47,526 nucleotides of DNA from NCBI GenBank assembly GCA_037139415.1, contig JBAXGN010000037.1, positions 1 to 47,526 on the forward strand. Direction: 5' to 3'. The DNA comes from Verrucomicrobiota bacterium. GTDB lineage: Bacteria; Verrucomicrobiota; Verrucomicrobiia; Limisphaerales; Fontisphaeraceae. This document shows positions 6,270 to 32,081 of this stretch, piece by piece. The notes beneath the pieces were generated by a model that ran no database searches, had not been told where the DNA came from, and saw only the letters and a program-made list of their open reading frames with translations. How positions within the stretch are numbered: the first letter of the stretch is position 1; every line of letters starts with the position of its first letter. Both the position numbers and the translations under genes were made by a program.

Positions 6270-6281
6270 GAGATTGGCCGA

Positions 6282-11115: not shown

Positions 11116-14100
11116 ATGAAATACACCTTCCCACTCCTCACTGCCCTGCTGCTGGCACCGCTGGTCGCGTTGCCCGCTGCCGATACTTCCCGCCAAGGCG
11201 GCGTGCCGGTAGTGTTTTGGGCCTCGGAACCGATCTTGCCCGGAGAGACGGCGCTGCTCTTTGGCGACAGCATCGGGCCGAATGTGAAGGCGGTCGGCTG
11301 GCGGGTGCCGGATGCCGCCATCGTCGCTCCGCCGCTGAAAACGGCATTCGCGGAAGCAGGTGCCGTGCCGCTCGAAGTGCTCCAGGCCTCGGACCTCTCG
11401 GCGAAGGTGCGGCTGCTGGCGGATTGGAAGACCGGCTTGTTCGCCGTCAAACTCACGGGTACCGGCGGCACGTCGGCGACGATTTTTCTGAACCGCACAA
11501 AGCCTTGGTGGTGGCTCGGTGGCGAAAATGAAAACGCATTTGTTGGCGAAACGATCCGCGTGTTTGGAAATAATTTTGGCGACAAGACGCGCGCCTGGCT
11601 CATCGGCCATGGTGCGAACGTGGAACTGCCCGGGGTGAAGGCGGAGAAATACGCGGCCAGTTTCAATCTGCCGCCGACCCTTTCGCCGGGCGAATATGCG
11701 CTCTGGGTCCACAACGGTTTTGGCGGTGATGCGGGTTTCGGCGAACCACTCGCGGTCCGCGTTGCCAAGCGCGAACCGTGGCCGACGACGCAGTTTAACG
11801 TCCGTGATTTTGGCGCGCGCGGCGACCGGGTGGGCGGGAAGGGCGAAAATTTGCAAGATGACACGCCGTCGTTCGAGGCGGCGTTGGCCAAAGCGGCGGC
11901 CAACGGCGGCGGCGTGGTCTTTGTGCCGCGCGGCAATTACAAAATTACCGGCAAACTGGTCATCCCCGCGAAGACGGTTTTGCGCGGTGAGAAGCGCGAG
12001 TGGGTCTGGTTGTATGCGCCGAAGGAATTGCCGGAGTTCGACACGGTGTTGGCTGGCAACGGTGATTTTGTTGTCGAGGAACTCTCCATCGTCGCGCAAA
12101 CCGCGCGGCGCCTGGTTGTCTGCCCGGACATACCTTCGGCCTATTCTCACGCGCGGGGTTATGTGCCGGCGCAAAAGTTCGGTCACAACGCGCATCTGCG
12201 CCGTCTGATGTTGCAACACGTCCGCTATTCGCATCGGTCCCGGTTCCCAGACGGCGATCCGATCAAGACGACCGAGACCGAAGGCATGACCACCATCATG
12301 CTGGCCGGGCCGGACATGGAAATCTCCGACTGCGAAGTGGTCAGTGCCGGCGGCCCGTTCGCGCTTTTCGGCGCGCATCGCTGTCGTATCGTCGGGAATC
12401 GTCTCGGCAACGGTCGCGGCGGCGCCTACCTGACTTGGGATGCCCGCGAAATGGTCTTCGAAAATAACCTCATCGAGCCGCGTGACAGCGAAGGGACCGG
12501 TGGCGGTTTCCAAGGCCAGGCTTACCGCGTGCATTTTGCGGGCAACACCTTCCGCCACATGTATGGCATTGATCGCGAGGCGCTCTCGTTTGACTCGCCC
12601 TATTTCGCTGCGTGGCGGGGCCAGGCTGTCAAGGTGGACGGCAACTCGTTGACCGTTCGCGATTACTCCGGCGCGGCGAAAACGTGGACCCCCGGCGTGC
12701 TCAAAGGCCAGGCCTGTTACGTTGCGTTCGGCAAAGGTCTCGGCCAATATATTCCGGTCGTGGATAATTCGGAGACGACCGTCACCCTGGCGCGTCCGTT
12801 CGCCGTGCCGCCTGACGAGACCAGCCACCTTGCGTTCGTCACGGCAAAAACCGAAACGGTGGTGGCCAACAATACCTGTTCTGATGCCAGCGTGGCGATC
12901 CAACTCTACTGCCAATGTTATGGTTTGATCGTGGATGGCAACCGCTCCGAACGCACCGGGGGGATGCATGGCTTCGGTGGGGGCAACGGTTGGAGTGAGA
13001 AGAAACAACTGTTTCATCTCACGATTTGTTGTTTCAACCAGTTCCTGAACAACGATCTGTCGCAAGGCTTTGTTTATCAACAAGGCCAGTCCATGAGCGG
13101 GGTTGTGGGCCCTTGCGTCGAAGGCACTGTGAACCAGCCGCCCGCCATCATCGGCATTGGCAACGTCGTTCGCAACAACACTGCCCGCGACAATCAGATT
13201 TTCGGTTCGATGGCCGGGCGCCCGCATCCTTTCAAGCTCGCCCCGCCTGCTGACGGCACGGGGTATGTTTGCCGCGATACCCTCATCGAGGGCAATATCA
13301 TCGCCGATACGCCGCTGGCGCTGGACGTGTATCCCTTTCATCGCGACACGCTGCTGCGAAATAACCGCATTGAGCGGGCGTTGCGGCCGTTGCGTGACGA
13401 CGGAACCAACACCTGGATTCATCCCGCCGAACGGCTCGGCTACCAAGTCCAGGGCGTGAAGTTCCTGCTCGGTGAAAAAGCCGGCATCAGCACCATCGAA
13501 CGTGCTGTTACCGAACTCGCGAACCGCCCCGCAGCGTCGCCAGAGCTGGCCGATCAATGCGCGCGGCTGCGCAAGCAACTGTGGGACGAAGTTGCGCGTT
13601 GTCAGCCGCAGGGCACCACGCCCGAGATGGCGGCGTTATTGGTCGGCCTGCGCTGTGACTTCTCGCCGATGAAATCGTTCGCTTCCGGCAAGGCAGGAAA
13701 ATCCGATGTCGCCGTTGACGTTCGCACCGAACCGTGGTCACCCGAAGTCGGCGTGCAGTTCGAGGTGGTTCCCCCATCGGGCTGGAAGGTCGCCAACAGC
13801 GGGGCGGTACAGATGCCTCCCTTCCAAGTTGTAAACTTTAAATCGTCCGTGACCGTGCTGGAAAAGGCGGATGCGAAGTTTCTGCCCGTGCGTTTCAACC
13901 TGACCCTGGACGGCGGCGCGCTGACCGTCGTGGATCGCCTGGATATTGCGGGACGCGACTTGTCTCGTTGGATGGTCATCGGTCCGTTTGCCAAAGTCAG
14001 CGGCGCGCTCCCCGACACCAGCATACATCCTCCGGAACGACGGCTCGACTTGGGCGCAGAGTATGCCGGACTCACCGGCCAGGTCAAATGGCAGCCGGTC

Positions 14101-15033
14101 GAGTTGCCCAACAAGTATCTGACTTTGAGCAAACTTTTCGGAACAGCCGAATCCGTCACCGCATTCGCGGTGACTTGTCTGCGTGCCGACCAAGCGATTC
14201 CCATCGAACTCAGCGTGACGTGCCGGGGCGGTTTGCAACTATGGCTCAAAGAACGTCTCGTGGTCAGCATGGCACCCCACGGTTTCAAGACGCTGCGGCT
14301 CGATTTGCAGGAAGGTGACAATATTTTACTTTGCAAATCGTCGGTGGAGAGCGGCCCATGGGAAGTCACGGCCGAGTTCAAGGAACTTTCTTTGGACGAG
14401 CAAACCCATGTGCGGCAAGTACCGTTGGCTGAGCTGAAGGCGCTGAAGGCGCTCGCTCCACCTTCTCCGAAACCGCCGCGCGCCGGCGCGCTGCAAGAGA
14501 GCGGCGGGGTTGCGTGGCGGCAGGTCCATGCCGACGACTTCGATGGTCGTCTCCTCGGCAACTCATGGAAAGTCGTCTCCGGTCAATGGTTCATTCAGGA
14601 CGGTGCGCTGGTCGGCAAAGAACCTTCCTTCCTTGCGTTCACGAAGAAAATTTCCCCACCCGTGCGCATCGAATATGACGCGCGCAGCGAATCGCCTGCC
14701 GATCTATCCTGCTTCTGGTTGCCGGACCCGGCGAAAATGGGAAGCGGTTACCTCTTCGCGTTTGCCTCCGGCGATATGGGCAGCCGCATCCTGATCGCTG
14801 GAAACAAAGTGGCAAGTTCCGATTCGTCGCTGGCCAAGGGCGCGCCCAATCAGTGGTATCACGTCATTGCTCAGGTGTTGCCCAACGGCAAGGTGCAACT
14901 CCTCATTGATGGCAAGGAACTGTTGACCGCGCGCAGTGATCCCAAGACTGCGCGGCCTGCTTTCCCCGGTTTGTGGACCTGGGGCGGCAGTCAATTCAGG
15001 AATGTGCGTATTTATTCGGGTCCCGACCAATGA
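11116..15033 (+). CDS. Large secreted beta-helix (pectate-lyase superfamily) protein with C-terminal binding domains
   Basis: Starting at ATG 11116, which opens a clean signal peptide (TFPLLTALLLAPLVALPA), the protein has 1305 residues. Residues about 30-215 form immunoglobulin-like modules. A right-handed beta-helix of the Pectate_lyase_3/GH28-like group begins near 228 (FNVRDFGARGD, DDTPSFEAAL, GGGVVFVPRGNY) and runs to about 760 with many Asn-ladder motifs. A helical segment and a WMVIGPF module (about 950-1090) follow, then a concanavalin-like DUF1080/LamG domain (about 1135-1300; DDFDGRLLGN, YDARSES, WYHVIAQV). It probably binds and cleaves a pectin-like or algal polymer outside the cell. 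TTGACG (11080-11085) and TAGCGT (11103-11108) lie so close to the ATG that the mRNA could be leaderless. It opens the carbohydrate locus; catalytic residues cannot be assigned. Confidence 0.85.
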   Translation: MKYTFPLLTALLLAPLVALPAADTSRQGGVPVVFWASEPILPGETALLFGDSIGPNVKAVGWRVPDAAIVAPPLKTAFAEAGAVPLEVLQASDLSAKVRLLADWKTGLFAVKLTGTGGTSATIFLNRTKPWWWLGGENENAFVGETIRVFGNNFGDKTRAWLIGHGANVELPGVKAEKYAASFNLPPTLSPGEYALWVHNGFGGDAGFGEPLAVRVAKREPWPTTQFNVRDFGARGDRVGGKGENLQDDTPSFEAALAKAAANGGGVVFVPRGNYKITGKLVIPAKTVLRGEKREWVWLYAPKELPEFDTVLAGNGDFVVEELSIVAQTARRLVVCPDIPSAYSHARGYVPAQKFGHNAHLRRLMLQHVRYSHRSRFPDGDPIKTTETEGMTTIMLAGPDMEISDCEVVSAGGPFALFGAHRCRIVGNRLGNGRGGAYLTWDAREMVFENNLIEPRDSEGTGGGFQGQAYRVHFAGNTFRHMYGIDREALSFDSPYFAAWRGQAVKVDGNSLTVRDYSGAAKTWTPGVLKGQACYVAFGKGLGQYIPVVDNSETTVTLARPFAVPPDETSHLAFVTAKTETVVANNTCSDASVAIQLYCQCYGLIVDGNRSERTGGMHGFGGGNGWSEKKQLFHLTICCFNQFLNNDLSQGFVYQQGQSMSGVVGPCVEGTVNQPPAIIGIGNVVRNNTARDNQIFGSMAGRPHPFKLAPPADGTGYVCRDTLIEGNIIADTPLALDVYPFHRDTLLRNNRIERALRPLRDDGTNTWIHPAERLGYQVQGVKFLLGEKAGISTIERAVTELANRPAASPELADQCARLRKQLWDEVARCQPQGTTPEMAALLVGLRCDFSPMKSFASGKAGKSDVAVDVRTEPWSPEVGVQFEVVPPSGWKVANSGAVQMPPFQVVNFKSSVTVLEKADAKFLPVRFNLTLDGGALTVVDRLDIAGRDLSRWMVIGPFAKVSGALPDTSIHPPERRLDLGAEYAGLTGQVKWQPVELPNKYLTLSKLFGTAESVTAFAVTCLRADQAIPIELSVTCRGGLQLWLKERLVVSMAPHGFKTLRLDLQEGDNILLCKSSVESGPWEVTAEFKELSLDEQTHVRQVPLAELKALKALAPPSPKPPRAGALQESGGVAWRQVHADDFDGRLLGNSWKVVSGQWFIQDGALVGKEPSFLAFTKKISPPVRIEYDARSESPADLSCFWLPDPAKMGSGYLFAFASGDMGSRILIAGNKVASSDSSLAKGAPNQWYHVIAQVLPNGKVQLLIDGKELLTARSDPKTARPAFPGLWTWGGSQFRNVRIYSGPDQ

Positions 15034-15071
15034 AGTTCACTGAACTGATAGCAACCTGAAATACACCCTCC

Positions 15072-15842
15072 TCACCACTCCCCGTGCCGCTGAAACTTGC
15101 CACGCACTGCCTGGCCAAACGCCGACGCTGCCTCATCAATCGCCTGCAGAATTTCGGCGCTCGGTTTGCCGCTGGCACTGCGCGCCGCAGGAATGAGCGT
15201 GTTGCATTCGTTGGCATCCATAAAACGGGCCGCTTCCAGTAAATCTCGCTCCTCACCGAACGGCAGTGCCAGGAAACCGTGCTTATCAGCGTGGATCAAT
15301 TGGCCCGGCCGGATTTTGCGGCCAAATACTTCGACTTCGCCCCCCCAGCGCATGGGTGCCACACACGCATGGCCTACGCAGAGACGGCGCGCCAGCGCTT
15401 TGAATCCGGCGTTGTTCATTTCGTCCACGTCACGGATGCAACCGTCAATGATGCTGCCCACGCAGCCCAGCGCACGGTGGATGTTGCTGTTGACCTCTCC
15501 CCAAAAAGCGCCCACATGGTTCGGCTTGTCCAGGTCTTGCACCACTACGATCTTGGGGCCGGACACGCTGGCAATATACTGGCGGTATTCGCTCCAAGCT
15601 TTGGGATGTTTTACTGCATACTTGCGATTGCTAGGCTGGATGATCACCGTCACCGCATAGCCCACCATTGGTCCCATGTGCGGCATGAAATCACGGGTTT
15701 CCTCGCGGTTAAAGGCGTCCGTCGTGGCGTCATGCTTGGTAATTTGCTCCCAGCCATTGTAAATGGTAGGCGTATTCCACCGTTTAAGCTGCAGTAAGTC
15801 AGCGTGAGTTAGTGGATGGGGTTTGATTTTGGATTTGGTCAT
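15072..15842 (-). CDS. RraA-like family protein (possible aldolase/decarboxylase)
   Basis: This 256-residue cytoplasmic protein matches the RraA/4-hydroxy-4-methyl-2-oxoglutarate aldolase fold: TIYNGW near the N-terminus, GPMVGYAVTV, and the core motif IDGCIRDVDEM, in which Arg and Asp bind the Mg-pyruvate moiety in characterised HMG aldolases. HADKHGFLALP is the usual C-terminal signature. In PVC bacteria such proteins often sit beside sugar-degradation genes and may cleave keto acids from sugar breakdown; an RNase E regulator role is less likely given the extra N-terminal 60 residues. It is convergent with the large beta-helix gene and divergent from the mutarotase. Confidence 0.85.
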   Translation of the reverse strand: MTKSKIKPHPLTHADLLQLKRWNTPTIYNGWEQITKHDATTDAFNREETRDFMPHMGPMVGYAVTVIIQPSNRKYAVKHPKAWSEYRQYIASVSGPKIVVVQDLDKPNHVGAFWGEVNSNIHRALGCVGSIIDGCIRDVDEMNNAGFKALARRLCVGHACVAPMRWGGEVEVFGRKIRPGQLIHADKHGFLALPFGEERDLLEAARFMDANECNTLIPAARSASGKPSAEILQAIDEAASAFGQAVRGKFQRHGEW

Positions 15843-16085
15843 AATTCTATCAATCTACCGTCGTTCAAAATGAGAACGCTGATGAATGAGGAGCGCCTGC
15901 GCAAAAGCCAACCGCCCGGCAAATTTTGCCGCAAACAAACGAATGGGTGGGCCACTCAAATCTCTCATGCGCGCCCTAAACTAGCGCAAAACCATCCGCT
16001 CGACTACGGAAATGATGCCGTTGATCTTCAGATCATCTCCCAAGTTTCTCATGGAAAATTCCGGCGGAACGCTTATGCTGCCGCC

Positions 16086-17204
16086 ATGTCTGGCAGCAAA
16101 AACAGCTTGGATGAGCGAGCACGGAATGCCCGTGGTTGCGGAATAAGTGTTTTTTCCGAGAGTTGGTTGCTGTCCATGTTGATTATGAATCTTGCTTTAA
16201 TGGCCCAGGTCGCTGGAGATAGTCCTTCATTCTTGTGGAAACAGTTGCCACCCATCCCGGATCGTGAAGGGTTTGCCGGTGCTTTTGCGGGAGTCAGTCA
16301 AGGGTCTCTGCTAGTGGCAGGCGGAGCCAACTTCCCGGGGAAAAAGCCTTGGGAAGGTGGCAAAAAGATTTGGTACGACGGCATTTTTGCCCTTGCCACT
16401 CCCACCGGTGAATGGAAAAAAGTGGGTAAACTGCCGCGCCCCTTGGGTTACGGTGTCTCGGTAACGACAGCCGAGGGCATGGTTTGTGTTGGGGGCAGCG
16501 ACCTAGAGCGCCATTACGCGGATGCTTTTATGGTAACCCTGTCGGGTAGTAGCGTGAAAATCAGGCTACTCCCGTCGTTGCCAGTACCCATGGCTAATGG
16601 AGCGGGGGCGGTGGTGGGCTCGGTCCTTTACGTTTTTGGCGGCTCAGATGTTCCTGGCGAGGTTTCGGTGTTTAACCGGTTGTTTGCTTTGGACCTCTCT
16701 GCGCCTGCGGCGTGGAAAGAGCTTGAACCCTGTCCTGGCAAAGCACGTCTGCTGCCAGTAGCGGCATCGCTGGCGGGGACGTGCTATGTTGCCGGTGGCG
16801 CCACATTGCAAAATAGCACCAACAAAATGACCCGCGTATATCTTACCGATGCTTGGTGCTATCAACCTGCCAAGGGCTGGAAACGCCTTGCTGATTTGCC
16901 CAGGCCTTGCGTGGCCGGACCTTCCCCGGCGCCCGTTTGTGGTAACCGCTTTTACCTGGTGGGCGGGGATGATGGTTCCCATGTGGGGTTCACTCCGCCG
17001 GATAAACATCCCGGGTTTGCCAGGGACATTCTCGTTTACGACACGATCACCGATGCCTGGCAGGTGGCGGGACCAGTGCCTGCCCCGCGCGCCGTGCTGC
17101 CGGTGGCGTTTTGGCAAAACCAGTTTGTCATGCCCAACGGTGAAATTCGTCCCGGTGTCCGGTCGCCGGAAGTCTGGTCATTGAAATTGGGGGCCGAGCC
17201 ATAA
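16086..17204 (+). CDS. Exported cyclically permuted mutarotase / kelch protein (NanM-like)
   Basis: From ATG 16086 the product has 372 residues with a late signal anchor (WLLSMLIMNLALMAQ, about 30-45). The mature part is a six-bladed kelch propeller: LLVAGGANFPGKKPWEGG, YGVSVTTAEGMVCVGGSD, VLYVFGGSD, TCYVAGGAT and RFYLVGGDDGS mark the blades. The first blade phrase is typical of the cyclically permuted mutarotase family (TIGR03548), related to NanM, which interconverts sialic acid anomers. The frame is open further upstream (from 15816), but those residues show no conserved pattern and would displace the signal sequence. In this locus it may act on another sugar acid released by lyases. TATGCT lies six bases before the ATG. 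Confidence 0.85.
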   Translation: MSGSKNSLDERARNARGCGISVFSESWLLSMLIMNLALMAQVAGDSPSFLWKQLPPIPDREGFAGAFAGVSQGSLLVAGGANFPGKKPWEGGKKIWYDGIFALATPTGEWKKVGKLPRPLGYGVSVTTAEGMVCVGGSDLERHYADAFMVTLSGSSVKIRLLPSLPVPMANGAGAVVGSVLYVFGGSDVPGEVSVFNRLFALDLSAPAAWKELEPCPGKARLLPVAASLAGTCYVAGGATLQNSTNKMTRVYLTDAWCYQPAKGWKRLADLPRPCVAGPSPAPVCGNRFYLVGGDDGSHVGFTPPDKHPGFARDILVYDTITDAWQVAGPVPAPRAVLPVAFWQNQFVMPNGEIRPGVRSPEVWSLKLGAEP

Positions 17205-17359
17205 CCTGCCATGAACAAATCCAGCAATTTCAAAAGACGCATGTGGCTGATCGTCGGGGTACAATGGATAAGAAATTGCGCCCGATCCACAAAGTCCGCT
17301 CGCCACCTTGCGGATGCGTCGAATGAACGATCTCCCTTGCCGTCAAAATATTGCGTAAT

Positions 17360-19690
17360 ATGAGCCGATTTTACACCATTTTCGCAGTTACTGTTTCGCT
17401 GCTGGCACCGCTGCCCGCGCTGCGCGCTGCCGAAACCACACCGGCTGTTGTGGGCGTGGCTGGCAATCTTGCTGTCACATCCACACCGGCAGCCTCAGGC
17501 ATCGCGATGGTGGCACCGAACCCATTTCAGCGGCGCAATCTTTTTGGGAAAGCCACCAAGCCGCGCTTTGAACTGCGAGACCGGGACTGGCCGGTCAAGG
17601 TAGGCGATGCCAGTATTTGCCTGTGGAAAGACGATGCCGTTGCGGCCGCATCCACGGGTGTTGATGACAACTGTGCCGCCAACCTGCCGTGGTGGCTGGA
17701 TATGTGCAAAAAATACGGTTTACGGCCCACCTGGTGGCTTATCACCGGCAACGTCAACGGCAAGAACGCAAACGGCGGCACTTGGGACGCCTGGAAGAAG
17801 GTCCTGGCGGCAGGCTGCGACGTGCAGTCCCACACCGTTAACCATTTGCACACCGAGTCGCCAACATGGAAGAACATGGAAACCGAATACGCCGATTCGC
17901 AAAAGACCGTTAACGCGAACGTGCCGGGTGCCCGATGCCTCACCCTCGCCTATCCCGGCGGTAAAAATCAGGCCCTGAATGATCCGGCTCTGGCGGCGAA
18001 GTATTATATTGCGGGACGCACCGGTGTCGCAACGATCAACCCAGCGAATGCCATCGACTATCTTCAGGTCCATGCCACGAGCGCTTTCAATATCTCTGAG
18101 GCCAAATTTCCCGGTGGCAATCTGGTGACCGTGTTTGAGAAGTCGCCTAAGAACGTGTATTGGCGTGGTTGGTGGGTCGGGTTCTTCCACTGGATCAAGA
18201 CTGATGACGCGGCCCAAATAGCGAGCTGTGAAAAGCGGTTCACCTATATTCAAGGGAAAGTCCAGAGCGGCGAATTGTGGTTGGGGCTATTCCGCGAGGT
18301 CGCCATGTACGGTCAGGAACGTGACACGTCCAGGTTGGAAGTGAAGAGCGTTGCACCCGACAAAATTGTATTCACCCTGACCGACGAGATGGATGATACC
18401 TTGTTCGACTTCCCGCTGACCGTGAAGGTGCGGCTCGACTTGGATGCCTATGGCGGCTCAAAAAGCATCCCAGGCCAGGCCACCGAGTGGTTTGCCTTGC
18501 AGCAACTCAAGGGCCGCTGGTGGTTGGTTACGCCGGAGGGCCATGGGATGATCTCCTTGGGCGTGGTGCATATTATGGCTACCGCTACGCTTCCGATCTA
18601 CGAGGCGGCGTATCATAGTGATCAAACCGCCTTGACGAAGGATGTGGCGGACAACCTGCGGCGTTGGGGATTCAATAGCGCAGGCTATGGGGCGGTTTGG
18701 AAAAGCAGAGATCAGGCGATGATGAGCGAGTTGCCACTGATGGTTTCGTTGGAAGACCTGCTTGGCATTTCAAGGTTTTCGAAAACTCCTGAGCGGCTCG
18801 ATTTGTTTGATGAATCCGTGCGCGAGACACTTGCCAATCGGATTGCGCAACACGTTAATCCGGTCAAAAACGCGAAAAAACTGATCGGGTATTTCTACGT
18901 GGACCTGCCCCTGTGGTGGAACCAAGCGGCGCGAAAGAAAGAGAACGATTGGGCAATTGCCTATCGCAAACTGACGGCCACAGCGCCGGGCAAGGTGCAG
19001 TACGTGGATTTTCTGCTGACGCGGCACAAGGTGATAGCGGCAATCAACCAGGCGTATGGCACGAGTGCAACGGATCGTGCGGGGCTCCTGGCGGAAACCG
19101 CTTGGGCCAATGTTAAACCAGACGCACCGACGGTCATGGAAGATGACAAAGCCTTCGTGGTGATTGTCGCACGAAAGTATTACCAGCTTTGCCACGATGA
19201 GATTCGCAAGCTTGATCCGCATCACCTGATTTTTGGCGACCGCTATGCAGGGACGGATTTACTGCTGCTTGAATCAGTCCTCACGGAAGCGGCACCGTAT
19301 CTCGATGGAGTGGCGATTCAGCCCTTCGACCGGGACCGGTATAACACAGAGTTGTATGATAAGATTGCTGCAATCACCGGCAAACCGATATTGTTCTGCG
19401 ATTTCGCGGTGAATTTTTCCGCGCCTAAATATCCAAATGGAATGTGGGGGTCATGGCCGACGGAAGACCAAGCGGCGGATGTCTGGTCCCGATATCTGGA
19501 TGATGCGTTCGGGCGTCCGTATATGGTTGGTATTCATCGCTGCGAATACATTGACCTGCCCCGCGAGAAGGTGCTGAAGCAGGGGTTGATTCAGCAGGAC
19601 GGACGCCCATACGCCCGGACGGTACAGCGCTACGCGGAGATTCACAAAAAGTTGTACCAGCGCATGTATGGCGGGAAGCCCGGTGAGTGA
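17360..19690 (+). CDS. Polysaccharide deacetylase fused to an agarase-like glycosidase domain
   Basis: The 776-residue exported protein (signal FYTIFAVTVSLLAPLPALRA) joins two modules. Residues about 80-300 are a NodB-type deacetylase: LWKDDA (Asp91, Asp92) replaces the usual TFDDG, and SHTVNH supplies metal-binding His158 and His162; it would remove acyl groups from a sugar polymer. Residues about 345-770 look like a GH50/agarase-type barrel: GRWWLVTPEGHGMISLG, IGYFYVDLPLWW, DPHHLIFGDRY and KPILFCDF. At the places where agarases carry catalytic Glu (NE after the FxxD strand and E in the last strand) this protein has Leu-Pro (516-517) and Asp681, so the mechanism may differ. A TTG at 17351 is an alternative start. 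It is the first gene after the mutarotase on the same strand. Confidence 0.8.
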   Translation: MSRFYTIFAVTVSLLAPLPALRAAETTPAVVGVAGNLAVTSTPAASGIAMVAPNPFQRRNLFGKATKPRFELRDRDWPVKVGDASICLWKDDAVAAASTGVDDNCAANLPWWLDMCKKYGLRPTWWLITGNVNGKNANGGTWDAWKKVLAAGCDVQSHTVNHLHTESPTWKNMETEYADSQKTVNANVPGARCLTLAYPGGKNQALNDPALAAKYYIAGRTGVATINPANAIDYLQVHATSAFNISEAKFPGGNLVTVFEKSPKNVYWRGWWVGFFHWIKTDDAAQIASCEKRFTYIQGKVQSGELWLGLFREVAMYGQERDTSRLEVKSVAPDKIVFTLTDEMDDTLFDFPLTVKVRLDLDAYGGSKSIPGQATEWFALQQLKGRWWLVTPEGHGMISLGVVHIMATATLPIYEAAYHSDQTALTKDVADNLRRWGFNSAGYGAVWKSRDQAMMSELPLMVSLEDLLGISRFSKTPERLDLFDESVRETLANRIAQHVNPVKNAKKLIGYFYVDLPLWWNQAARKKENDWAIAYRKLTATAPGKVQYVDFLLTRHKVIAAINQAYGTSATDRAGLLAETAWANVKPDAPTVMEDDKAFVVIVARKYYQLCHDEIRKLDPHHLIFGDRYAGTDLLLLESVLTEAAPYLDGVAIQPFDRDRYNTELYDKIAAITGKPILFCDFAVNFSAPKYPNGMWGSWPTEDQAADVWSRYLDDAFGRPYMVGIHRCEYIDLPREKVLKQGLIQQDGRPYARTVQRYAEIHKKLYQRMYGGKPGE

Positions 19691-19920
19691 TTTTGTGGAG
19701 TGCCTGGAATACAGCGCTTTCCTTCATGAAAATATGAAACGCCACCGGTCTGGAAACGTCAAAGAACAGCCAATATGGGGGGGGGGTCCGTTCCGTTGGT
19801 CGCATGGATATGCGACTTTGTCCATGGCTTCCAACAGTGATACGCTGGAAAACGTAACGACGGACTATATTGGCTAACGCGGTTTGCACGTGCGCCCGCT
19901 AAATGAAATAATCGGAGATT

Positions 19921-21906: not shown

Positions 21907-21970
21907 GCCATGCGCGTGATCATAACGACTAACGGGCAGATGCAGGTTGGCTGAGGTAAAAATCAATACC

Positions 21971-24070: not shown

Positions 24071-24132
24071 GATCAGCACCTGCAAATTTAAAGCGATGAA
24101 ATTCCATGCATCGTAACTGAAGGCAAAAACAG

Positions 24133-26451
24133 ATGAAGCAAATTACCTTGGTCACCTTCATCGTTCTGCTTGTGGCACCGCTCTTGGCTGCTGACGCGCC
24201 ATTGTCGTCGAACCCCTATGTGCCGCTCTTCGAGCAAATCTTCACCCGCAATGAACCGGCGGTGGCGAAACGCTCTGCTTTCGAGAAGTTGTGTCTCGCA
24301 AATGTCGGGATGCGCCTGGCACAACGAACCGGACGAACCGAGTACCGCACCAAAGCCGCTGCGCTTTTTGAATCAGCTCTGCCGGAGGTTGTCAGCAAGC
24401 CCAGCGACTTTCATACCCAACGTACCATCGCGCTCGCCCTCTTGCCACTACGGCAATCGGGCCTGATTAAACCGGACACGGAGCAGACGCTGCGGATCAT
24501 CGCATCGAAAACCTGGAAGGAGTTTCTCGCTGCTCCCGAGGGTTCCGAGCAAGGTGATGTTGACCATAACATCCGTCTCGCCCAAGCCCTAAGCTGCGCG
24601 GCATTCGCCAATTTTTTCAAGGACGACAAGACGATGGACTCAGCGCCCATCCGAACCCGACTTGACCACTATTGGAGCAAGATCAAGGCAACCGGTGATC
24701 TGGATGAAGATGCGAGTAACTATACTGGCCTAGGAATTGTCCACTGCATTGAGTTGGCGCAAATGCTCGGGCATGAGGAGGATCTTCGTGCACCCGGCTT
24801 TCGCCGCATGTTTGCAAGGCAGCGCGATACGATCTCGACCACCGGGCTATTGCCCGAGTTTGGCGACGGTTTTTTCCACCTGGACCGCGATGCCTTCGAC
24901 TTCGTGTATTTGTGTGAATATGCCGCAAAGGTTTTCGACGACCCCACTTATCTCACGGTTGTGCGCCGTCTCTACGACCCGGTGACGTTTGCAAAAGCGG
25001 TGCCAGACGAATGGTGCCGCGCTATTTCCCTTCTCGGGCTGGAACTTTCCCGGCGTCTGCCGGAGCCACTTCCCGCCGCTTCGCTGGTCAACTACCGGGC
25101 CAACCGGGTTAGTCCGCAGCCGGTGGTGGACAAGCTTATTCTTCGCACCGGCACCGAGCCCGGCAGTGCCATGGTGTTGCTGGATCTCTATGCCGCAGGC
25201 AGTCATGCGCATCCTTCCAAGGGGCCATCAGTGGCCTACTATGAGGTGGATGGCGTGCCGCTTTTTCACAATCTCGGTCGTCATCGCACCCGTTCTGCGA
25301 TCACGGGCAATAGCTTCTGGGCGCTTGAAACGCCTCGCGCTTTTCCCGGGGTCTGGAAACCCGGCGAGTGGTTTACGATGTCCATTCCGGCAGAATTGAT
25401 GCTCCAAGACGCGGCGGGCGCATTGCAAGTGGGCGACCGCGTCACCCTACGCAATTTCGAGAATCGCGGAACCAAACAACTTTGGTTCGATAATCTGCGG
25501 CTGGACGGCACAGTGGGCGTGAAGTTGCTGGATGGGTTTGAAAGTGAGAAGACATGGCATCGCAACCTCGCCTCGGCTCCAGGGCTCAAGGTAGTAACCT
25601 CACCCGAACACACTCAGGGCGCCGCCTCCCAAAGCCTGAACTGGGGTGTGCTCAAGTCTGGCGCCTACGCCCGCATGTTGGCCGATGCCCGCAGCTTCAC
25701 CTTCAAGCCCGGTGAGTTTAACACGCTGAAAATAGATGTGAAATACGATGGCATCCGCCCCTATCTGCACTTGCGCGACCTTTGCCAGCAGATTGATCTC
25801 GGCGACCATGCGCTGCCTTATCACGTCGGCTCCGCCCGCACCGAACAACGCGAACGCGATGCTTTCGGGGAAGTGGTCTTCAGCCGCTATATCGTCGCCG
25901 ATGCCCAACTCACGCGCCGGATCGTGCTCACTGCGGAAGGCTGCCTGATCATCCACGACCGCTGGTCTTCTGGAAAATCGCAGCCGAAGTGGACCGTCGG
26001 CCAGCTCTGGCAGTTCTACGCGTTGAAGGATCACGGGGCGGATTGGTTCTGCGGAGACGATGACGGGGCATTCACGGTGCCGGATGGGCATGGCGGCACG
26101 AAGTCCGTCACGCGCCGGATGCTGGTGAAGTTTGCGATGGGGCCGAACGCCGACACCTTTGTCGAGCAGGTCAATCAGTCCTATCTGGCTCCGAATCCAA
26201 AAAACCGTCCGCAAGATAAATTTTTTACGACCGGTAGCCGACGCATTGTTTCCTCCGGCGAGGAGGCATCTTTCACCCTTGTCGTTGTTCCGCACGATCC
26301 CGACCAGAACGCGAAGTCCCTCGCGGGCGCAATCCGTTTCAATTCAACGCCTGATGGTGTCGAAGTTGTGCTCAACCAAACCGCTGCCGCTGCTCCCGTT
26401 CGGATTGGGTTGTTCCGTGATGGTCGCTGGGAAGTTTCACGCAAGCATTGA
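24133..26451 (+). CDS. Exported heparinase-like protein with an inserted beta-sandwich
   Basis: A 772-residue protein with signal peptide (ITLVTFIVLLVAPLLAADA) and the same plan as its upstream neighbour: an alpha-helical N-terminal domain (about 25-320, with GLLPEFGDGFFHLD near 240) and a beta-rich half with SHAHPSKGP (His358, His360) and VPLFHNLGRH. Residues about 420-555 (VTLRNFENRGTKQLWFDNLRLDG, LLDGFES) look like a carbohydrate-binding beta-sandwich inserted into the C-terminal domain. It is likely a polysaccharide lyase or an accessory binding protein; the substrate is unknown. A ribosome binding site GAAGG lies before the ATG. Third gene of the GH51 operon. Confidence 0.7.
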   Translation: MKQITLVTFIVLLVAPLLAADAPLSSNPYVPLFEQIFTRNEPAVAKRSAFEKLCLANVGMRLAQRTGRTEYRTKAAALFESALPEVVSKPSDFHTQRTIALALLPLRQSGLIKPDTEQTLRIIASKTWKEFLAAPEGSEQGDVDHNIRLAQALSCAAFANFFKDDKTMDSAPIRTRLDHYWSKIKATGDLDEDASNYTGLGIVHCIELAQMLGHEEDLRAPGFRRMFARQRDTISTTGLLPEFGDGFFHLDRDAFDFVYLCEYAAKVFDDPTYLTVVRRLYDPVTFAKAVPDEWCRAISLLGLELSRRLPEPLPAASLVNYRANRVSPQPVVDKLILRTGTEPGSAMVLLDLYAAGSHAHPSKGPSVAYYEVDGVPLFHNLGRHRTRSAITGNSFWALETPRAFPGVWKPGEWFTMSIPAELMLQDAAGALQVGDRVTLRNFENRGTKQLWFDNLRLDGTVGVKLLDGFESEKTWHRNLASAPGLKVVTSPEHTQGAASQSLNWGVLKSGAYARMLADARSFTFKPGEFNTLKIDVKYDGIRPYLHLRDLCQQIDLGDHALPYHVGSARTEQRERDAFGEVVFSRYIVADAQLTRRIVLTAEGCLIIHDRWSSGKSQPKWTVGQLWQFYALKDHGADWFCGDDDGAFTVPDGHGGTKSVTRRMLVKFAMGPNADTFVEQVNQSYLAPNPKNRPQDKFFTTGSRRIVSSGEEASFTLVVVPHDPDQNAKSLAGAIRFNSTPDGVEVVLNQTAAAAPVRIGLFRDGRWEVSRKH

Positions 26452-26486
26452 GATGAACCATTTTCAAAAATCGAAGGATAAAACAA

Positions 26487-28325
26487 ATGAAGCAGATTAA
26501 AACCCTGATCCTCACCGCGATGCTTTTGGTCGCCGGCAGTGTTTGCGCCGCGCCGGTTTCATTGACCGTTGATCCCGACAGGGTCGTCGGCCACATTGAC
26601 GAACGGCTCTACGGTCAGTTTCTCGAACACATTTACCATTCCTGTAACGGCGGTCTGTGGGGCGAGGTCGTCTGGAACCGTAGCTTCGAGGAACTGCCAC
26701 CGGTGAAGAAGGGCGAGAAACGTCGTCCGGATGCGTTTGCCCGACATTGGGAGATCATTGGGGCTGGCCAGGTACGGCTCGACACGAACCAGCCGTTGAA
26801 CGGCTTGAAAAGCGTGAGAATTACCACTGCCGACGCAGTGGCCGGCGTGGTCCAGAAAAACTATAATTTGCGTGGTGGCGATACGTTTCGCGGCTCGCTC
26901 TGGGCGCGTGGTGATGGTGCGCTCACGGTTAAACTCGGCGATGCGGAACAAACCATTCCGTCAGTGACCGCCGAATGGAAGGAATACCCGCTCACACTCT
27001 CGCCGAAATCCGGTGACACGCTCCAAATCAGCGCGCGCGGCAGCGTCTGCATTGATCAGGTGAGCCTCATGCCCGACGCCGCGCGGGCGACCGGCGGGTT
27101 TCGTCCCGATTTGCTCGATGCTGTTGCGGCATTACGTCCGCCGACGATTCGTTGGCCCGGCGGCAGCTTCGTGGGAGGCTACAAATGGAAGAACGGCATC
27201 GGCCCGCAACACCAACGCGTCAGCAAGAAAGGCTGGGACGAACTCGATCCGCTCAGTTTCGGGGTTGATGAGTTCATGGCGCTCTGCCGCAAACTCGGCG
27301 CGGAGCCGGTCATCTGCGTGGACATGGGCGTGGACAAACCGGAGCTGGTGCAGGATGCGTGCGACTTCATTGAGTACTGCAATGGGCCGACGACCTCGAA
27401 GTGGGGTGCCGTCCGTGCCGCCAACAGCCACGCCGCGCCGTATCGCGTGAAGTACTGGGAGATCGGCAACGAAGTCTGGCGTCTGAAGCCCGAGGAGTAC
27501 GTCGGCGTCGTCAAACAGTTCGCCCCGGCTATGAAGCAAGCAGACCCGGCGATCCAGCTCATTGCCTGCGGCAGCGGACAGCTCGGCGGACATTGGCGCG
27601 AGGGCGATATCGCGGTGATCGAGCAATGCGCGGAACTGGTGGATTACCTCAGCGTTCACCACTACGAAAAACCAGAAAACTTTGCCGACGGCCCGGCTGC
27701 CGCCGAACAGTTCTGGCAGACGCTGGCCGCGCGCATCACCCAGTCGAAGAACCCGAAATTGAAAATCTACTTCTCGGAGTGGAACACGCGGAGCAGTATT
27801 GACTGGCGCAACGGCCTCTATGCCGGCGGCATCCTGAACGCCCTCGAACGCAACGAAATCATTACGATGGCCTGCCCGGCCCTCTGGCTCCGGCATGTCA
27901 GCGCGCCGAATTGGGACAACGCCTTTATCAACTTCGATGCCAGCGGTTGGTTCCCCGCACCGAACTATGTCGTCGTGAAACTCTGGCATGACCACCGCGC
28001 GCCGAACCGGCTCGCGCTCGAAGGCGCCCCCGGGCCGCTCAACGTCATTGCCGCCAAGGGCGACGGCCTCACGCTGAAAGCGGTCAATCCCGGCACCAAT
28101 GCCGTGCCAGTGGCACTGATCGTCAAACCCGGTTTCACCATCGGCAAGGCGGAGTTCATGCTGGTCAATCCGGGCAGCCTCGAAGCCCGCAACTCATTGA
28201 CTGAGCCAAACCAGATTCATCCCGCACCCGCCGATGTGAAACTGGATGGTCAGACCGTGCGCTTCACGATGCCGCCATTGTCTGCGGGAGTCATCACGCT
28301 GAAAGAAAGAAGCAAATTAAACTGA
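26487..28325 (+). CDS. Secreted GH51 alpha-L-arabinofuranosidase, second copy
   Basis: The 612-residue protein (signal TLILTAMLLVAGSVCAA) has the standard GH51 start DERLYGQFLEHIY followed by GGLWGEVVWNRSFE, a jelly-roll insertion (about 85-195), and the barrel with IRWPGGSF. Acid/base Glu329 lies in EIGNEVW and nucleophile Glu431 in YFSEWNTR. It is not a close duplicate of the first GH51 (19921-21906), suggesting different linkages or side chains. AAGGATAAAACAA precedes the ATG, 35 bp after the previous gene, so it closes the four-gene operon. Its stop codon runs into the remnant of a third heparinase-like gene. Confidence 0.94.
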   Translation: MKQIKTLILTAMLLVAGSVCAAPVSLTVDPDRVVGHIDERLYGQFLEHIYHSCNGGLWGEVVWNRSFEELPPVKKGEKRRPDAFARHWEIIGAGQVRLDTNQPLNGLKSVRITTADAVAGVVQKNYNLRGGDTFRGSLWARGDGALTVKLGDAEQTIPSVTAEWKEYPLTLSPKSGDTLQISARGSVCIDQVSLMPDAARATGGFRPDLLDAVAALRPPTIRWPGGSFVGGYKWKNGIGPQHQRVSKKGWDELDPLSFGVDEFMALCRKLGAEPVICVDMGVDKPELVQDACDFIEYCNGPTTSKWGAVRAANSHAAPYRVKYWEIGNEVWRLKPEEYVGVVKQFAPAMKQADPAIQLIACGSGQLGGHWREGDIAVIEQCAELVDYLSVHHYEKPENFADGPAAAEQFWQTLAARITQSKNPKLKIYFSEWNTRSSIDWRNGLYAGGILNALERNEIITMACPALWLRHVSAPNWDNAFINFDASGWFPAPNYVVVKLWHDHRAPNRLALEGAPGPLNVIAAKGDGLTLKAVNPGTNAVPVALIVKPGFTIGKAEFMLVNPGSLEARNSLTEPNQIHPAPADVKLDGQTVRFTMPPLSAGVITLKERSKLN

Positions 28326-28496
28326 TTACATCAATCGCCCTCGCCGCCTTGGTGCTCTCGCCGCTGACTTGGGGCACGACGAAGGAGGAATATCGCGAGG
28401 CGGCAGTCGAATGAGGCGGAGTTCTTGAATCTCGCGGGCGATGTGGTGCTGGCCTGTAACAATCGCGCGCACGGCGGTTATCCGCAACGCCGGACG
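28322..28496 (+). pseudogene. Remnant of a third heparinase-like paralogue
   Basis: Two short pieces match the gene at 21971-24070. From 28322 the frame reads a hydrophobic end of a signal peptide and LTWGTTKEEYREAAVE, matching RTWAATKDEYRAATVN of the intact gene. After a stop (TGA 28412) and a +1 shift it reads NEAEFLNLAGDVVLACNNRAHGGY, matching NDAELLGLARDLVLACNKAALDGY. About 40 codons that separate these pieces in the intact gene are deleted. The rest of the gene is gone; the next gene on the other strand follows at once. The operon once probably carried one more lyase-like gene. Confidence 0.75.
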
Positions 28497-28536
28497 ATAC
28501 GTTGAAGCCGGCGGTACACGATGGGCGCTGAGCCTG

Positions 28537-30399
28537 TCACTGACGGGCTGGTGGCACGGCTTCTTGAAAAGTCCGGCGCACGTCTGAGGCATCGGAGTTC
28601 TTCAAATTGGAGCGCTGGATCATCAACACATAGACCGTCTGCTTAACCGGATCAATCCAGGCCTGCGTCCCGTACGCACCGCCGTGACCGAACGTTCCGG
28701 GGGAATGCACCGCCGTAACCCCCTGTGGTTGCCGCACCACGCAGACACCCAAGCCCCAGCCATTGCCATCGGTGAAACCGGTCTTGAGGTCGCCAGTGTG
28801 GATGCTGGACATCAGCGTGACCGTCTCCGGCTTAAGGAGTTGGCGACCGTCCAACGTACCCTGCTTTAACAGCATCCGGCAAAACCGGGCGTAATCCGAC
28901 GCGGTGGAGAACAGCCCGCCATTCGGCGCCGGGTAGCGGTCGCGGAAAGCCGGCGAATAACCGTTGAGAAAAGCGACGGGCACTTCCGTAAGCGTGTCGT
29001 TGGTTAACGCATAGGATTTGGCCAGGCGCGGGAGTTGGGCTTCGGTCAGATAGAAGCCGGTGTCTTTCATCCCCAGCGGATCCAGCAGCCGCTTCTGGAG
29101 AAATTCAGGGAAGGATTGGCCGGAGACGACTTCCACGATTCGGCCGAGGGAGTTGATGCCGGATTGGCAATACTGCCACTTGGAACCGGGTACAAACGAG
29201 AGCGGGCGGCCCGCGTAGAAAGGAATCACGTCCGCCAACGAGCGCGCCGTCTTGTATTGGTCCCGGGTGGCTTCAGGCAGGCCGGAAGTGTGGGTTAGCA
29301 GATGGCGCAAGGTGATCCGGGCGGACTGGCCATCGGGGGTCTTGAGGGTGCCGAGTTCGGGAAGATACTTCGCGACCGGATCATCCACGGACAGCTTGCC
29401 CTCGTCCTGCAGCATCAGGATCGCGGTGGCAGTCAGGGGCTTGGTCATGGAGGCAATCCAGAATATCGCGTCAGTCGCCATCGGTTTTGCGTCGGCGATG
29501 TCGGCCAGACCGGCGGCATCAAAGTGGAGAATTTCCTCCGGCGTGGCGACGAGCGTCACGGCACCGGCGATTTCGTGGCGCGCAATGCTTGCCTGCATCG
29601 CTGCGGAGACCGCCGGGATTTTCGATGTCGCCACGAACGGGAGCTTTTTTACCTGAATGTCCTGGAAGCGGATTTTCAGTTCATCGCCGCTGTGTAGTTG
29701 CAGGGCAAAATGGCCGGAGCGTCCGACGTTGTGTTTCTGATGGGCCAGGTTATCGAGCACGCCCGCGCCCTGCCAGTCGGTACGCACGATGCCGTTGACC
29801 AGCGTGGTGACCCGGGTGCCCCGGCAAATCAGGGTGAGTTCATTCCAACCGTCGTCAGCGTATTTGAAGAGGTGGCGCTGGGGTTCGAGTTCAGGCCTCA
29901 TGCGGGAGTCCGGCAGACTGGGAAAAATCCAGCGGCGTTCCTCCCGAGTTTCGTCGTAGATCAGCCCTGTACGCCAGGACATGGCCTTGGGCGGGTGAAT
30001 GTCCACCTGGGGACCGTTCATCCAGCCACCGCTGACCGTGTCGTCGAAGCGGCTGCGGAATTGCAGCCCGCTGTTTCCCGGCGAGTCCGCGTAGGCCTGG
30101 AATTTCAGACGCATCTCGAAATCCGCAAACTCCTGTTCGCTGACCAGCCAGACATAGTTGTGATTCTTGCGTCCGATGCTGTCACAGAGAATGGCGCCGC
30201 TCTCCACCGACCAGAAAACGGAACCGCGATCCTTTGGCTGGCACTGGACCGTCCAGCCGGTAAGGTCCTTGCCGTTGAAGAGGGACATCCACTCCTCGGC
30301 AAATGTGCGCGTGACAGAGATGAACAGGAGGAGAATCCAGGCCAAAGTCAGGGGAACTGTGGCGGCTTTAACGGTATTCAAACGCAAATAGCATTTCAT
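28537..30399 (-). CDS. DUF1080 (3-keto-glucoside hydrolase-like) domain fused to a class C beta-lactamase-like serine hydrolase
   Basis: The 620-residue product (start ATG 30399; signal anchor VPLTLAWILLLFISV) has two modules. Residues about 35-255 form the concanavalin-like DUF1080 fold (WMSLFNGKDLTGW, DFEMRLKF, GNSGLQFRSRF, WNELTL), found in 3-keto-disaccharide hydrolases and carbohydrate binding. Residues about 262-620 are a serine beta-lactamase/esterase fold: nucleophile Ser317 and Lys320 in SMTK, LTHTSGLP, and HGGAYGT near the C-terminus. The second motif, normally Tyr-x-Asn, is Tyr410-Cys-Gln here. The pair suggests an esterase or amidase tethered to a sugar, for instance removing acyl groups; antibiotic resistance is unlikely. 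It points against the arabinofuranosidase operon. Confidence 0.85.
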   Translation of the reverse strand: MKCYLRLNTVKAATVPLTLAWILLLFISVTRTFAEEWMSLFNGKDLTGWTVQCQPKDRGSVFWSVESGAILCDSIGRKNHNYVWLVSEQEFADFEMRLKFQAYADSPGNSGLQFRSRFDDTVSGGWMNGPQVDIHPPKAMSWRTGLIYDETREERRWIFPSLPDSRMRPELEPQRHLFKYADDGWNELTLICRGTRVTTLVNGIVRTDWQGAGVLDNLAHQKHNVGRSGHFALQLHSGDELKIRFQDIQVKKLPFVATSKIPAVSAAMQASIARHEIAGAVTLVATPEEILHFDAAGLADIADAKPMATDAIFWIASMTKPLTATAILMLQDEGKLSVDDPVAKYLPELGTLKTPDGQSARITLRHLLTHTSGLPEATRDQYKTARSLADVIPFYAGRPLSFVPGSKWQYCQSGINSLGRIVEVVSGQSFPEFLQKRLLDPLGMKDTGFYLTEAQLPRLAKSYALTNDTLTEVPVAFLNGYSPAFRDRYPAPNGGLFSTASDYARFCRMLLKQGTLDGRQLLKPETVTLMSSIHTGDLKTGFTDGNGWGLGVCVVRQPQGVTAVHSPGTFGHGGAYGTQAWIDPVKQTVYVLMIQRSNLKNSDASDVRRTFQEAVPPARQ

Positions 30400-30545
30400 G
30401 GTGGGATCATGCTCATAGCAGCCAGGGGCCGTCAAGCGACGATAAGCAGACGACGCGCAGAAGGAGAGGGTATATTTAACACTTTACCAGGTTGAACTTG
30501 CTGTGACACTCGTTTATGCTTTATCACCAAAGTAAAATACATCGA

Positions 30546-32081
30546 ATGAAAAGAACTGTCCTGCTAATTCTCTGTGTTCTGGCGCCCGCTTCGGCGGCGG
30601 TGTTGTCTGCTGCCACCTACCACGTGGATTCCATCTCCGGCACCGATACCAACGATGGCCGCAGTCCCGCCGCCGCCTGGCGCTCGCTGACCAATGCTAA
30701 CGCCACCACCTTTCAACCCGGGGATCGGCTGTTGCTTAAGTGCGGCTCGGTCTGGACCGGGCAACTTCACCCGTTGGGTTCCGGCAGCGCCACGCAGCGG
30801 ATCATCCTCGACAGTTACGGCGAAGGCCCGCAGCCGATCATTCACGGCGGTGGGATCGCCAGCGGAGCTGTCTTCCTCCAAAATCAGCAGTACTGGAGCA
30901 TTCGCAACCTTGAAGTCTCCAATCAGGGCTCTCCGGCTGCCAAAAAGGTGGGCATCCTGATCCGCAACAACTCGGTCGGCACGCTGTCCGGAATCGAGGT
31001 GAAGAACTGCCATATCCACGATGTCGTGGGTGATTTGACCGACTATCGCGATGGCAAGGAAAGCGGCGCCATCGTCTTCTATATTAACGTCGCAAACCTG
31101 TCGGTCCCGTCCCGGTGGGATGACATTCGTATTGAGAACAACACCATTCACGATGTCACTCGCAACGGCATCCTGATGCAGTCGCAGTGGATCAACAAAA
31201 CGAACGATCCGAACTCAAGCTGGCGCGGTCACGGTGTTTACACCACCTCCAGCAACATCATCATTGCCAGTAACCGCCTCGAACGCATTGGCGGCGATGG
31301 GATTATCCCTTGGTGCGTGAAAGGCGCGGTGATCGAGCGCAATTTTGTCCGTCAGTCGAACAACAATTCCGTGAAGCAAGGCCACGCCGCCATCTGGCCG
31401 TATTTCTGCGAGGACGTGCTTTTCCAATACAATGAGGTGTGCGAGACCAAAACGAAATACGACGGCATGGCCTTCGACTTCGACAACAGCAATCAGCGTT
31501 GTATCTACCAATACAACTACAGCCACGATAACGAGGGCGGCTTTCTGAACATGTGTTGCGACGGCAACGCCAACGGAAACATCGCCCGCTACAATATCAG
31601 CCAGAACGACGGCTGTCTGGCCGGCAGCCGTGTCTTTCTCGTGCATGGCCACGGCAACCACGGCTATCAGGTTTACAACAACACCATTTATGCCAGAAAC
31701 GGCAACCCCGTGATGTTCGAACAGGGCGCAGATAGTAGCGGCAGCTCAATCCTTTTTCAAAACAACATCTTCATCAACGCTGGCACAGGGAAATATAAAG
31801 CGCCCAAAGGCTGCCAGTTCGAGCGCAACCTCTACTTCGGTTCCGGCCAGCTCACCAACGATGTCAAAAGCATCCTCGCCGATCCACTCTTGGTGGCTCC
31901 CGGCAGTGGACAGGCGGGGCTGGATTCGGTCGCAGGATACAAGTTGCTCATCGGTTCCGCCGCGCTCAACGCCGGTGTGCCGATCACCGGCAACGGCGGC
32001 ATGGATTACTGGGGGAATCCCGTTTCCGCTAAATCCGCGCCCCACCTCGGGGCTTGGAATGGACGCCCAATCACCAAGTGA
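30546..32081 (+). CDS. Secreted right-handed beta-helix protein (pectate-lyase-like)
   Basis: ATG 30546 opens a signal peptide (TVLLILCVLAPASAAVLSA); 511 residues. The mature protein begins YHVDSISGTDTNDGRSPAAAW, the usual start of PL-type beta-helix enzymes that build on SGSDxNDGxSxxxPw, and goes on as parallel beta-helix rungs with many Asn and His (VKNCHIHDV, IRIENNTIHDV, VYNNTIYARNG). The last part (SAALNAG, LGAWNG) is the common capping motif of such proteins. It probably binds or cleaves a uronic-acid polymer. TAAAAT lies seven bases before the ATG; TTGAAC and TATGCT (30492-30519) form an alternative promoter. It is the last gene of the carbohydrate locus. Confidence 0.82.
   Translation: MKRTVLLILCVLAPASAAVLSAATYHVDSISGTDTNDGRSPAAAWRSLTNANATTFQPGDRLLLKCGSVWTGQLHPLGSGSATQRIILDSYGEGPQPIIHGGGIASGAVFLQNQQYWSIRNLEVSNQGSPAAKKVGILIRNNSVGTLSGIEVKNCHIHDVVGDLTDYRDGKESGAIVFYINVANLSVPSRWDDIRIENNTIHDVTRNGILMQSQWINKTNDPNSSWRGHGVYTTSSNIIIASNRLERIGGDGIIPWCVKGAVIERNFVRQSNNNSVKQGHAAIWPYFCEDVLFQYNEVCETKTKYDGMAFDFDNSNQRCIYQYNYSHDNEGGFLNMCCDGNANGNIARYNISQNDGCLAGSRVFLVHGHGNHGYQVYNNTIYARNGNPVMFEQGADSSGSSILFQNNIFINAGTGKYKAPKGCQFERNLYFGSGQLTNDVKSILADPLLVAPGSGQAGLDSVAGYKLLIGSAALNAGVPITGNGGMDYWGNPVSAKSAPHLGAWNGRPITK

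Follow-up and report, generated by a model that had tools for sequence, protein, structure and literature searches.

What would a bacterium attack with a row of secreted carbohydrate enzymes that has neither a transporter nor a regulator beside it, and do the genes of such a row belong together? The question is raised by positions 11116–32081 of a 47,526 bp stretch of DNA from Verrucomicrobiota bacterium (hereafter the window), which forms contig C37 of an assembly of 378 contigs (7.9 Mb, 98% complete). A preliminary description had placed ten carbohydrate-linked genes in these 21 kb, and coordinates and domain scans bear out every one of the ten positions. We propose, with about an even chance of being right, that they form a secreted enzyme set resembling a polysaccharide utilization locus (PUL) for an acylated, arabinofuranose-decorated uronate polysaccharide, assembled in this lineage from genes that are separate elsewhere. 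Two of the proteins, hepA and hepB, are well-supported members of the heparinase II/III superfamily, in a branch that is without a Pfam or NCBIfam family model as yet. The ten genes are as follows:

11116..15033, + strand: beta-helix 1; signal-like N terminus; Pect-lyase_RHGA_epim and beta-helix matches, both above the Pfam cut-off
15072..15842, − strand: RraA-like aldolase-fold protein; Pfam RraA-like, 76.9 bits against a cut-off of 24.5; no signal-like N terminus
16176..17204, + strand: kelch mutarotase, NanM/YjhT-type; Pfam NANM, 154.4 bits against a cut-off of 45; start uncertain
17360..19690, + strand: CE4 polysaccharide deacetylase fused to a GH50-like domain; Polysacc_deac_1, 44.8 bits against a cut-off of 23.1; GH50-like part by homology
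19921..21906, + strand: GH51a; ASD1_dom and Alpha-L-AF_C above the Pfam cut-off
21971..24070, + strand: hepA, heparinase II/III-superfamily protein; conserved N/Y/H; family profile match; no Pfam or NCBIfam match
24133..26451, + strand: hepB, heparinase II/III-superfamily protein; conserved N/Y/H; family profile match; no Pfam or NCBIfam match
26487..28325, + strand: GH51b; ASD1_dom and Alpha-L-AF_C above the Pfam cut-off
28537..30399, − strand: DUF1080 (3keto-disac_hyd) fused to a beta-lactamase-fold serine hydrolase/esterase (Pfam)
30546..32081 (start possibly 30516), + strand: beta-helix 2, GH136-like; phmmer matches to 6kqs (6.4e-35) and 5gqc (3.1e-32)

Heparinase II/III superfamily membership of hepA and hepB

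Distantly related paralogs (24% identity across 225 amino acids), hepA and hepB reach no model in Pfam or NCBIfam, Pfam Hepar_II_III included, and PDB sequence searches with both returned nothing useful. In an 18-member alignment of their family, Asn146 and Tyr197 are kept in 17 of 17 sequences and His358 in 18 of 18; we take Asn, Tyr and His to be the catalytic residues of heparinase II/III lyases. The family profile was compared with that of 12 heparinase II/III proteins of the window's own genome, which are its 13 hits minus one with an internal stop (L066). This gave a score of 87.6 (E 1.8e-9, probability 96%), against a maximum of 23.4 for 60 column shuffles and 21.9 for the reversed profile, and an alignment of 296 columns at 18% identity in which N, Y and HxH are aligned. 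A smaller test, six family members against a single heparinase II/III protein, gave a weak signal (P 0.0075 with a probability of 5%). The profile score, above those of the shuffled and reversed controls, and the aligned N, Y and HxH give good support to superfamily membership. The initial label “heparinase-like” therefore stands at the level of the superfamily, whereas at 18% identity and out of reach of any family model the pair differs from the members described so far. Lyase activity is predicted for both proteins from the conserved residues. Single-sequence structure models, in which an alpha/alpha toroid plus a beta-sandwich would be the expected fold, were poor (mean pLDDT, a per-residue confidence score, 35.6 and 42.4). 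One of the 12 proteins compared is encoded in the window itself, at 451–2529; it scores above the Pfam cut-off, and its gene lies close to the edge of the contig, at a distance of 19 kb from hepA.

Layout of the locus

Eight of the ten genes lie on the + strand, the RraA-like and DUF1080–hydrolase genes on the other, and with the starts chosen the intergenic gaps are, in gene order, 38, 333, 155, 230, 64, 62, 35, 211 and 146 bp. The sole part that looks like a single operon is GH51a–hepA–hepB–GH51b, with gaps of 64, 62 and 35 bp; four, perhaps five, genes are closely spaced. Signal-like N termini, called by a hydropathy heuristic and not by a signal-peptide predictor, were found in nine of the ten proteins (weakest in the mutarotase, none in the RraA-like protein), in line with the earlier statement that almost all carry signal peptides. 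Also as stated earlier, Pfam and NCBIfam scans of the ten proteins detected no SusC/D, ABC or MFS domain and no regulator domain, and since the gaps measure 35–333 bp there is no space for a transporter or regulator gene between them. With no SusC/D domain, the locus is not a SusCD-type PUL, for which a SusC/SusD pair together with carbohydrate-active enzymes is the criterion. Promoter and terminator scans of the locus gave nothing informative: a weak promoter-like match lies ahead of GH51a, and the whole scan yielded 12 matches against 7.1 (standard deviation 3.4) expected.

Distribution in other genomes

The searches with hepA and hepB covered 293 genomes of the order and 337 of the phylum; the comparison with loci fetched from other genomes used the full set of ten proteins. 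Within the order, the window's own genome is the only one to match hepA (1 of 293, E <= 1e-10) or hepB (1 of 293, E <= 1e-8). Across the phylum, hepA matches four of 337 genomes (E <= 1e-5), which are its own, a close one (G410, 79%) and two weak ones, while hepB matches seven, its own included. A hepB family scan of genome contigs gave 14 loci, with named records from Lentisphaerae, the Verrucomicrobia group, Pirellulaceae, Kuenenia, Alistipes and Bacteroides. G410 carries hepA and hepB on separate contigs (C74 and C27). In bin-1020 (G628), hepB (76–81%) is split across two contig ends and GH51a (75–78%) lies on a third contig of 22 kb, on which hepA and hepB were not found; the hepA comparison there covered fetched contigs only, and with short contigs and part of one hepB contig masked, the hepA–hepB arrangement could not be seen. 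The 67–81% identity shared with two distant genomes of another class suggests that these genes may have moved by horizontal transfer.

Neither the order and phylum genomes (by the hepA and hepB searches) nor the fetched loci yielded the ten genes together as a set. A conserved ten-gene system is therefore rejected, and conservation in relatives, the test that the preliminary description had set itself, failed, with the hepA–hepB arrangement of bin-1020 excepted.

Three further observations concern these records. The G410 hepA ortholog (L039 8681-10701) is split over two frames near its 3′ end. Two hepB relatives (L047, L055) stand in records labelled Candidatus Kuenenia stuttgartiensis, which are possibly mislabelled or contaminated bins. 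On one of these contigs there are also, at L055 5119-8117, relatives of the window's Gfo/Idh/MocA gene and of the HEAT part of its ThuA-HEAT gene (window 4983-9176); Gfo/Idh and ThuA are perhaps a common pair, since one also occurs on contig C65 of the window's genome.

Genes beside the relatives of hepA, hepB and GH51a

The GH51a ortholog of bin-1020 adjoins AraA and an AraC-type regulator, and a more distant GH51a relative (G552, 48–52%) has an ABC ATPase, a sugar-binding protein and GH30 nearby. Near the G410 hepA ortholog are a protein with two GH127 stretches, GH27, a BNR sialidase-like protein and an RHGA/DUF4955 protein. The company of hepB is more varied: a TonB receptor, SASA, DUF6288 and an esterase in G410; SusC-like pieces, SusD, a hybrid sensor and GH88 in one locus of B. 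cellulosilyticus; DUF4861, a SASA esterase, a TonB plug protein and GH2 in Alistipes An66; and an adjoining CE4, a beta-helix protein, a sulfatase and SASA in SJ186. In V. vadensis, the hepB relative is accompanied by LacI and a fusion of a kelch mutarotase to an SSF symporter, and fusions of the same kind lie near hepB in G427 (C4) and G520. The V. vadensis kelch part is unrecognised by family models and was called by its similarity to the other two fusions and to the window mutarotase. A comparison of the three fused kelch portions with the latter gave a score of 85.9 (E 9.9e-12, probability 97%), and 40 shuffles reached at most 19.1.

Twelve hepB-family places with at least 5 kb on one side (L032/L042, L036, L037, L038, L046, L048, L049, L050, L053, L054, L055 and L104) were searched by tblastn. 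The kelch–SSF fusion occurs at three of the 12, a figure with no base rate behind it, an SSF protein without kelch at a fourth (L104), CE4 at one and GH51 at none. We think it possible, though doubtful, that hepA and hepB represent an unclassified branch of polysaccharide lyases served by a kelch mutarotase of its own. On this view, a lyase–anomerase–symporter module for an acidic sugar would be present in V. vadensis, G427 and G520, and the window would have a free mutarotase without the symporter, its lyases joined to arabinofuranosidases and the CE4/GH50-like fusion. No paper on the mutarotase–symporter–lyase combination was among the literature matches listed, and a search on Victivallis lyases found none.

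A family of large proteins (about 970-1350 amino acids, 37-76% identical) was seen beside hepB in four genomes:

L048 12368-16363: member of the large family
L053 16336-20388: member of the large family
L038 8636-12634: member of the large family
L037 16945-19869: member of the large family
L036 8376-8870: member of the large family, cut by the contig end

It has no Pfam match (V. vadensis and B. cellulosilyticus members), no NCBIfam match (these two and the G520 member) and no PDB match (V. vadensis member), PDB searches with a 1331-amino-acid neighbour having returned nothing useful, and it was not found in the window. A near-palindrome, TTCCAATNATTGGAA, is present in bin-1020 (loci L101, L102, L105 and L111-L126), with 101 copies in 209,955 bp over 16 contig starts picked by number; it is absent from two. 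Thirty times it is paired 32 bp apart, with some copies intergenic and some within called frames. The window has no copy, nor do 11 stretches of its genome, and the literature matches listed for the sequence were unrelated. The pattern suggests a repetitive extragenic element or a very large regulon.

The other enzymes of the locus

Of the first family labels, the gene list, the RraA-like protein, the two GH51 proteins and the DUF1080–hydrolase stand, while the partner of the deacetylase is now GH50-like, beta-helix 2 GH136-like, and the mutarotase, upheld by Pfam NANM, a cyclically permuted kelch protein of the NanM/YjhT type. GH51a and GH51b are 27% identical and both have the GNE and EW motifs, which presumably serve the function of GH51 proteins; arabinofuranosidase activity is predicted for them, with support from genomic context.

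The CE4 fusion is homologous to GH50 beta-agarases. Where solved agarases carry DNE and GEF, with what we take to be the catalytic Glu pair, its GH50-like domain has VDLPLW and CDF, so the pair is not conserved and an agarase role is rejected. Among 12 aligned relatives, four have DNE with TEF (L010-L013), four share the Asp-type motif of the window with Asp at the second place (L008, L009, L019, L020), three have the second-place Asp with the first motif missing (L014-L016), and one (L018) matches the CE4 part alone. The Asp-type domains may be a functioning subgroup and not a product of decay. Matches to the fusion protein were found in 13 of the 293 order genomes (E <= 1e-20), the window's own being the sole match across both domains. 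A literature search on GH50 fusions found no paper, and one on GH136 and GH51 in Verrucomicrobia listed two that were unrelated.

The mutarotase is a kelch protein like the sialate mutarotases NanM/YjhT and aligns to 2uvk in cyclic permutation, but it remains below the curated NCBIfam subfamily cut-offs for NanM (154 of 416 bits), YjhT (139 of 256) and permuted mutarotase (151 of 243). Beta-helix 2 likewise shares the beta-helix homology of GH136 lacto-N-biosidases and aligns with both candidate catalytic Asp residues, whose roles we assume to be those of the GH136 pair, but it is shorter and scores 95.5 bits against the cut-off of 2500 for the curated LnbX equivalog. Beta-helix 1 (Pfam 35.7 bits against a cut-off of 27) has a LamG-like match below the cut-off at its C-terminus and matches in five of 11 other genomes searched, with the best E-values in G628 (28%) and G410 (35%). 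For the DUF1080–hydrolase, the 25 of 48 NCBIfam models listed all score far under their cut-offs, and a part in resistance is rejected for its beta-lactamase-fold domain.

Proposed function and alternatives

In the proposed route, CE4 (and the serine hydrolase) would take off acyl groups, GH51a and GH51b would strip L-arabinofuranose side chains, and hepA and hepB would cleave the exposed uronate backbone by beta-elimination, with the beta-helix proteins cleaving other linkages. The kelch mutarotase would equilibrate the anomers of the released acidic sugar ahead of uptake by a carrier that would be encoded elsewhere in the genome. Each catalytic step, their order, the carrier and the substrate are inferred. 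The route draws on the domains, on the heparinase profile match and conserved N/Y/H of hepA and hepB, on the company of relatives (AraA by GH51a; GH127 near hepA; GH88, esterases and CE4 near hepB), on the kelch–SSF fusions near hepB and on two GH88 genes above cut-off elsewhere in the window's genome. The extracytoplasmic attack on an acylated, arabinose-bearing uronate polymer envisaged at the outset fits these domains and neighbours. Of the sugar-acid handling envisaged with it, the mutarotase gains some support from the fusions in three genomes, while the role of the RraA-like protein remains a guess. Several findings weigh against the proposal. GH88 is not inside the locus, the GH50-like domain is without the agarase glutamates, GH51 was not found at any of the hepB-family places, nor the ten-gene set in the relatives searched, and GH136 and NanM homology and the BNR sialidase-like neighbour of the hepA ortholog would fit an amino-sugar or sialic-acid glycan too. 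Moreover, AraA_N had no match in the window's 98% complete genome, so that arabinose may bypass the isomerase route.

The ten genes may instead be several independent units brought together by chance in a genome rich in secreted carbohydrate enzymes, with GH51a–hepA–hepB–GH51b as the only functional group, which we regard as possible but unlikely. The two opposite-strand genes, the wider gaps beyond the core and the failure to find the set elsewhere agree with this, and they count against the earlier idea of one coordinated unit. The 13 heparinase II/III hits of the genome and a comparable secreted-enzyme cluster on C65 (GH99, GH43, GH88, a rhamnosidase-like protein and GDSL) also fit the chance reading. 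However, CE4 adjoins hepB in SJ186 and mutarotase domains lie near hepB in three genomes, which suggests that parts beyond the core belong together.

A target containing amino sugars or sialic acid-like residues, with CE4 as N-deacetylase and arabinose as a minor decoration, is improbable. The GH136-like beta-helix 2, the NanM-like mutarotase and the BNR sialidase-like neighbour of the hepA ortholog all fit such a glycan, but the scores fall short of the curated NanM/YjhT and LnbX cut-offs, the core has two GH51 genes, AraA lies beside the GH51a ortholog and GH88 is in a hepB-relative locus. No sialidase or NanA domain was found among the window proteins scanned, a set that ends before the last genes of the window. 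E. coli NanM also acts on KDN (PMC8141875), so the N-acetyl group appears dispensable for NanM, which argues against the sialic-acid reading. It is very improbable that the locus simply serves arabinan or arabinogalactan side chains, with hepA and hepB not acting as lyases: the arabinose context is the strongest genomic signal, but the conserved N/Y/H, the heparinase profile match and the GH88 of the hepB-relative locus speak against it.

Comparison with known systems

The absence of a transporter at the locus is not unusual for the group, even if loci with TonB proteins have been described as well. A search of the 7.9 Mb genome gave two TonB-barrel (PF00593) hits, and of ten proteins scanned in the similar C65 cluster two had no match and none had a transporter domain. 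Verrucomicrobiota metagenome-assembled genomes (MAGs) are reported to have no SusCD and yet PUL-like units, some of which include sugar transporters of other kinds (Orellana et al. 2021, PMC8857213). These, like the locus described here, co-locate carbohydrate genes without SusCD, but they centre on fucosidases and sulfatases. None of the ten genes here encodes a sulfatase; GH51 and CE4 enzymes stand beside lyase-like proteins that no family model covers. TonB-linked carbohydrate loci of freshwater Verrucomicrobia MAGs (He et al. 2017, PMC5615132) similarly cluster secreted hydrolases but come with TonB receptors, more than 20 copies in two MAGs, and the window locus has none. The alginate cluster of Verruconatronum alginivorum (PMC13274419) resembles the present case in that a Verrucomicrobiota genome combines lyases with GH88, an SSF protein being proposed as uronate carrier; it consists of PL15/PL39/PL29 alginate and chondroitin lyases with TonB proteins, and in the part of that paper available no link to GH51 was seen.

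The locus thus appears ordinary in kind and of interest for two protein families, with a mechanism inferred from domains and neighbours only. The cluster is a further case of polysaccharide breakdown without SusCD in the group. If our reading of hepA and hepB is true, they would add a branch of lyases that neither Pfam nor NCBIfam models yet, seen in genomes from the Verrucomicrobiota group to gut Bacteroidota, and a mutarotase–symporter fusion would be tied to this new branch; both would be easily assayed.

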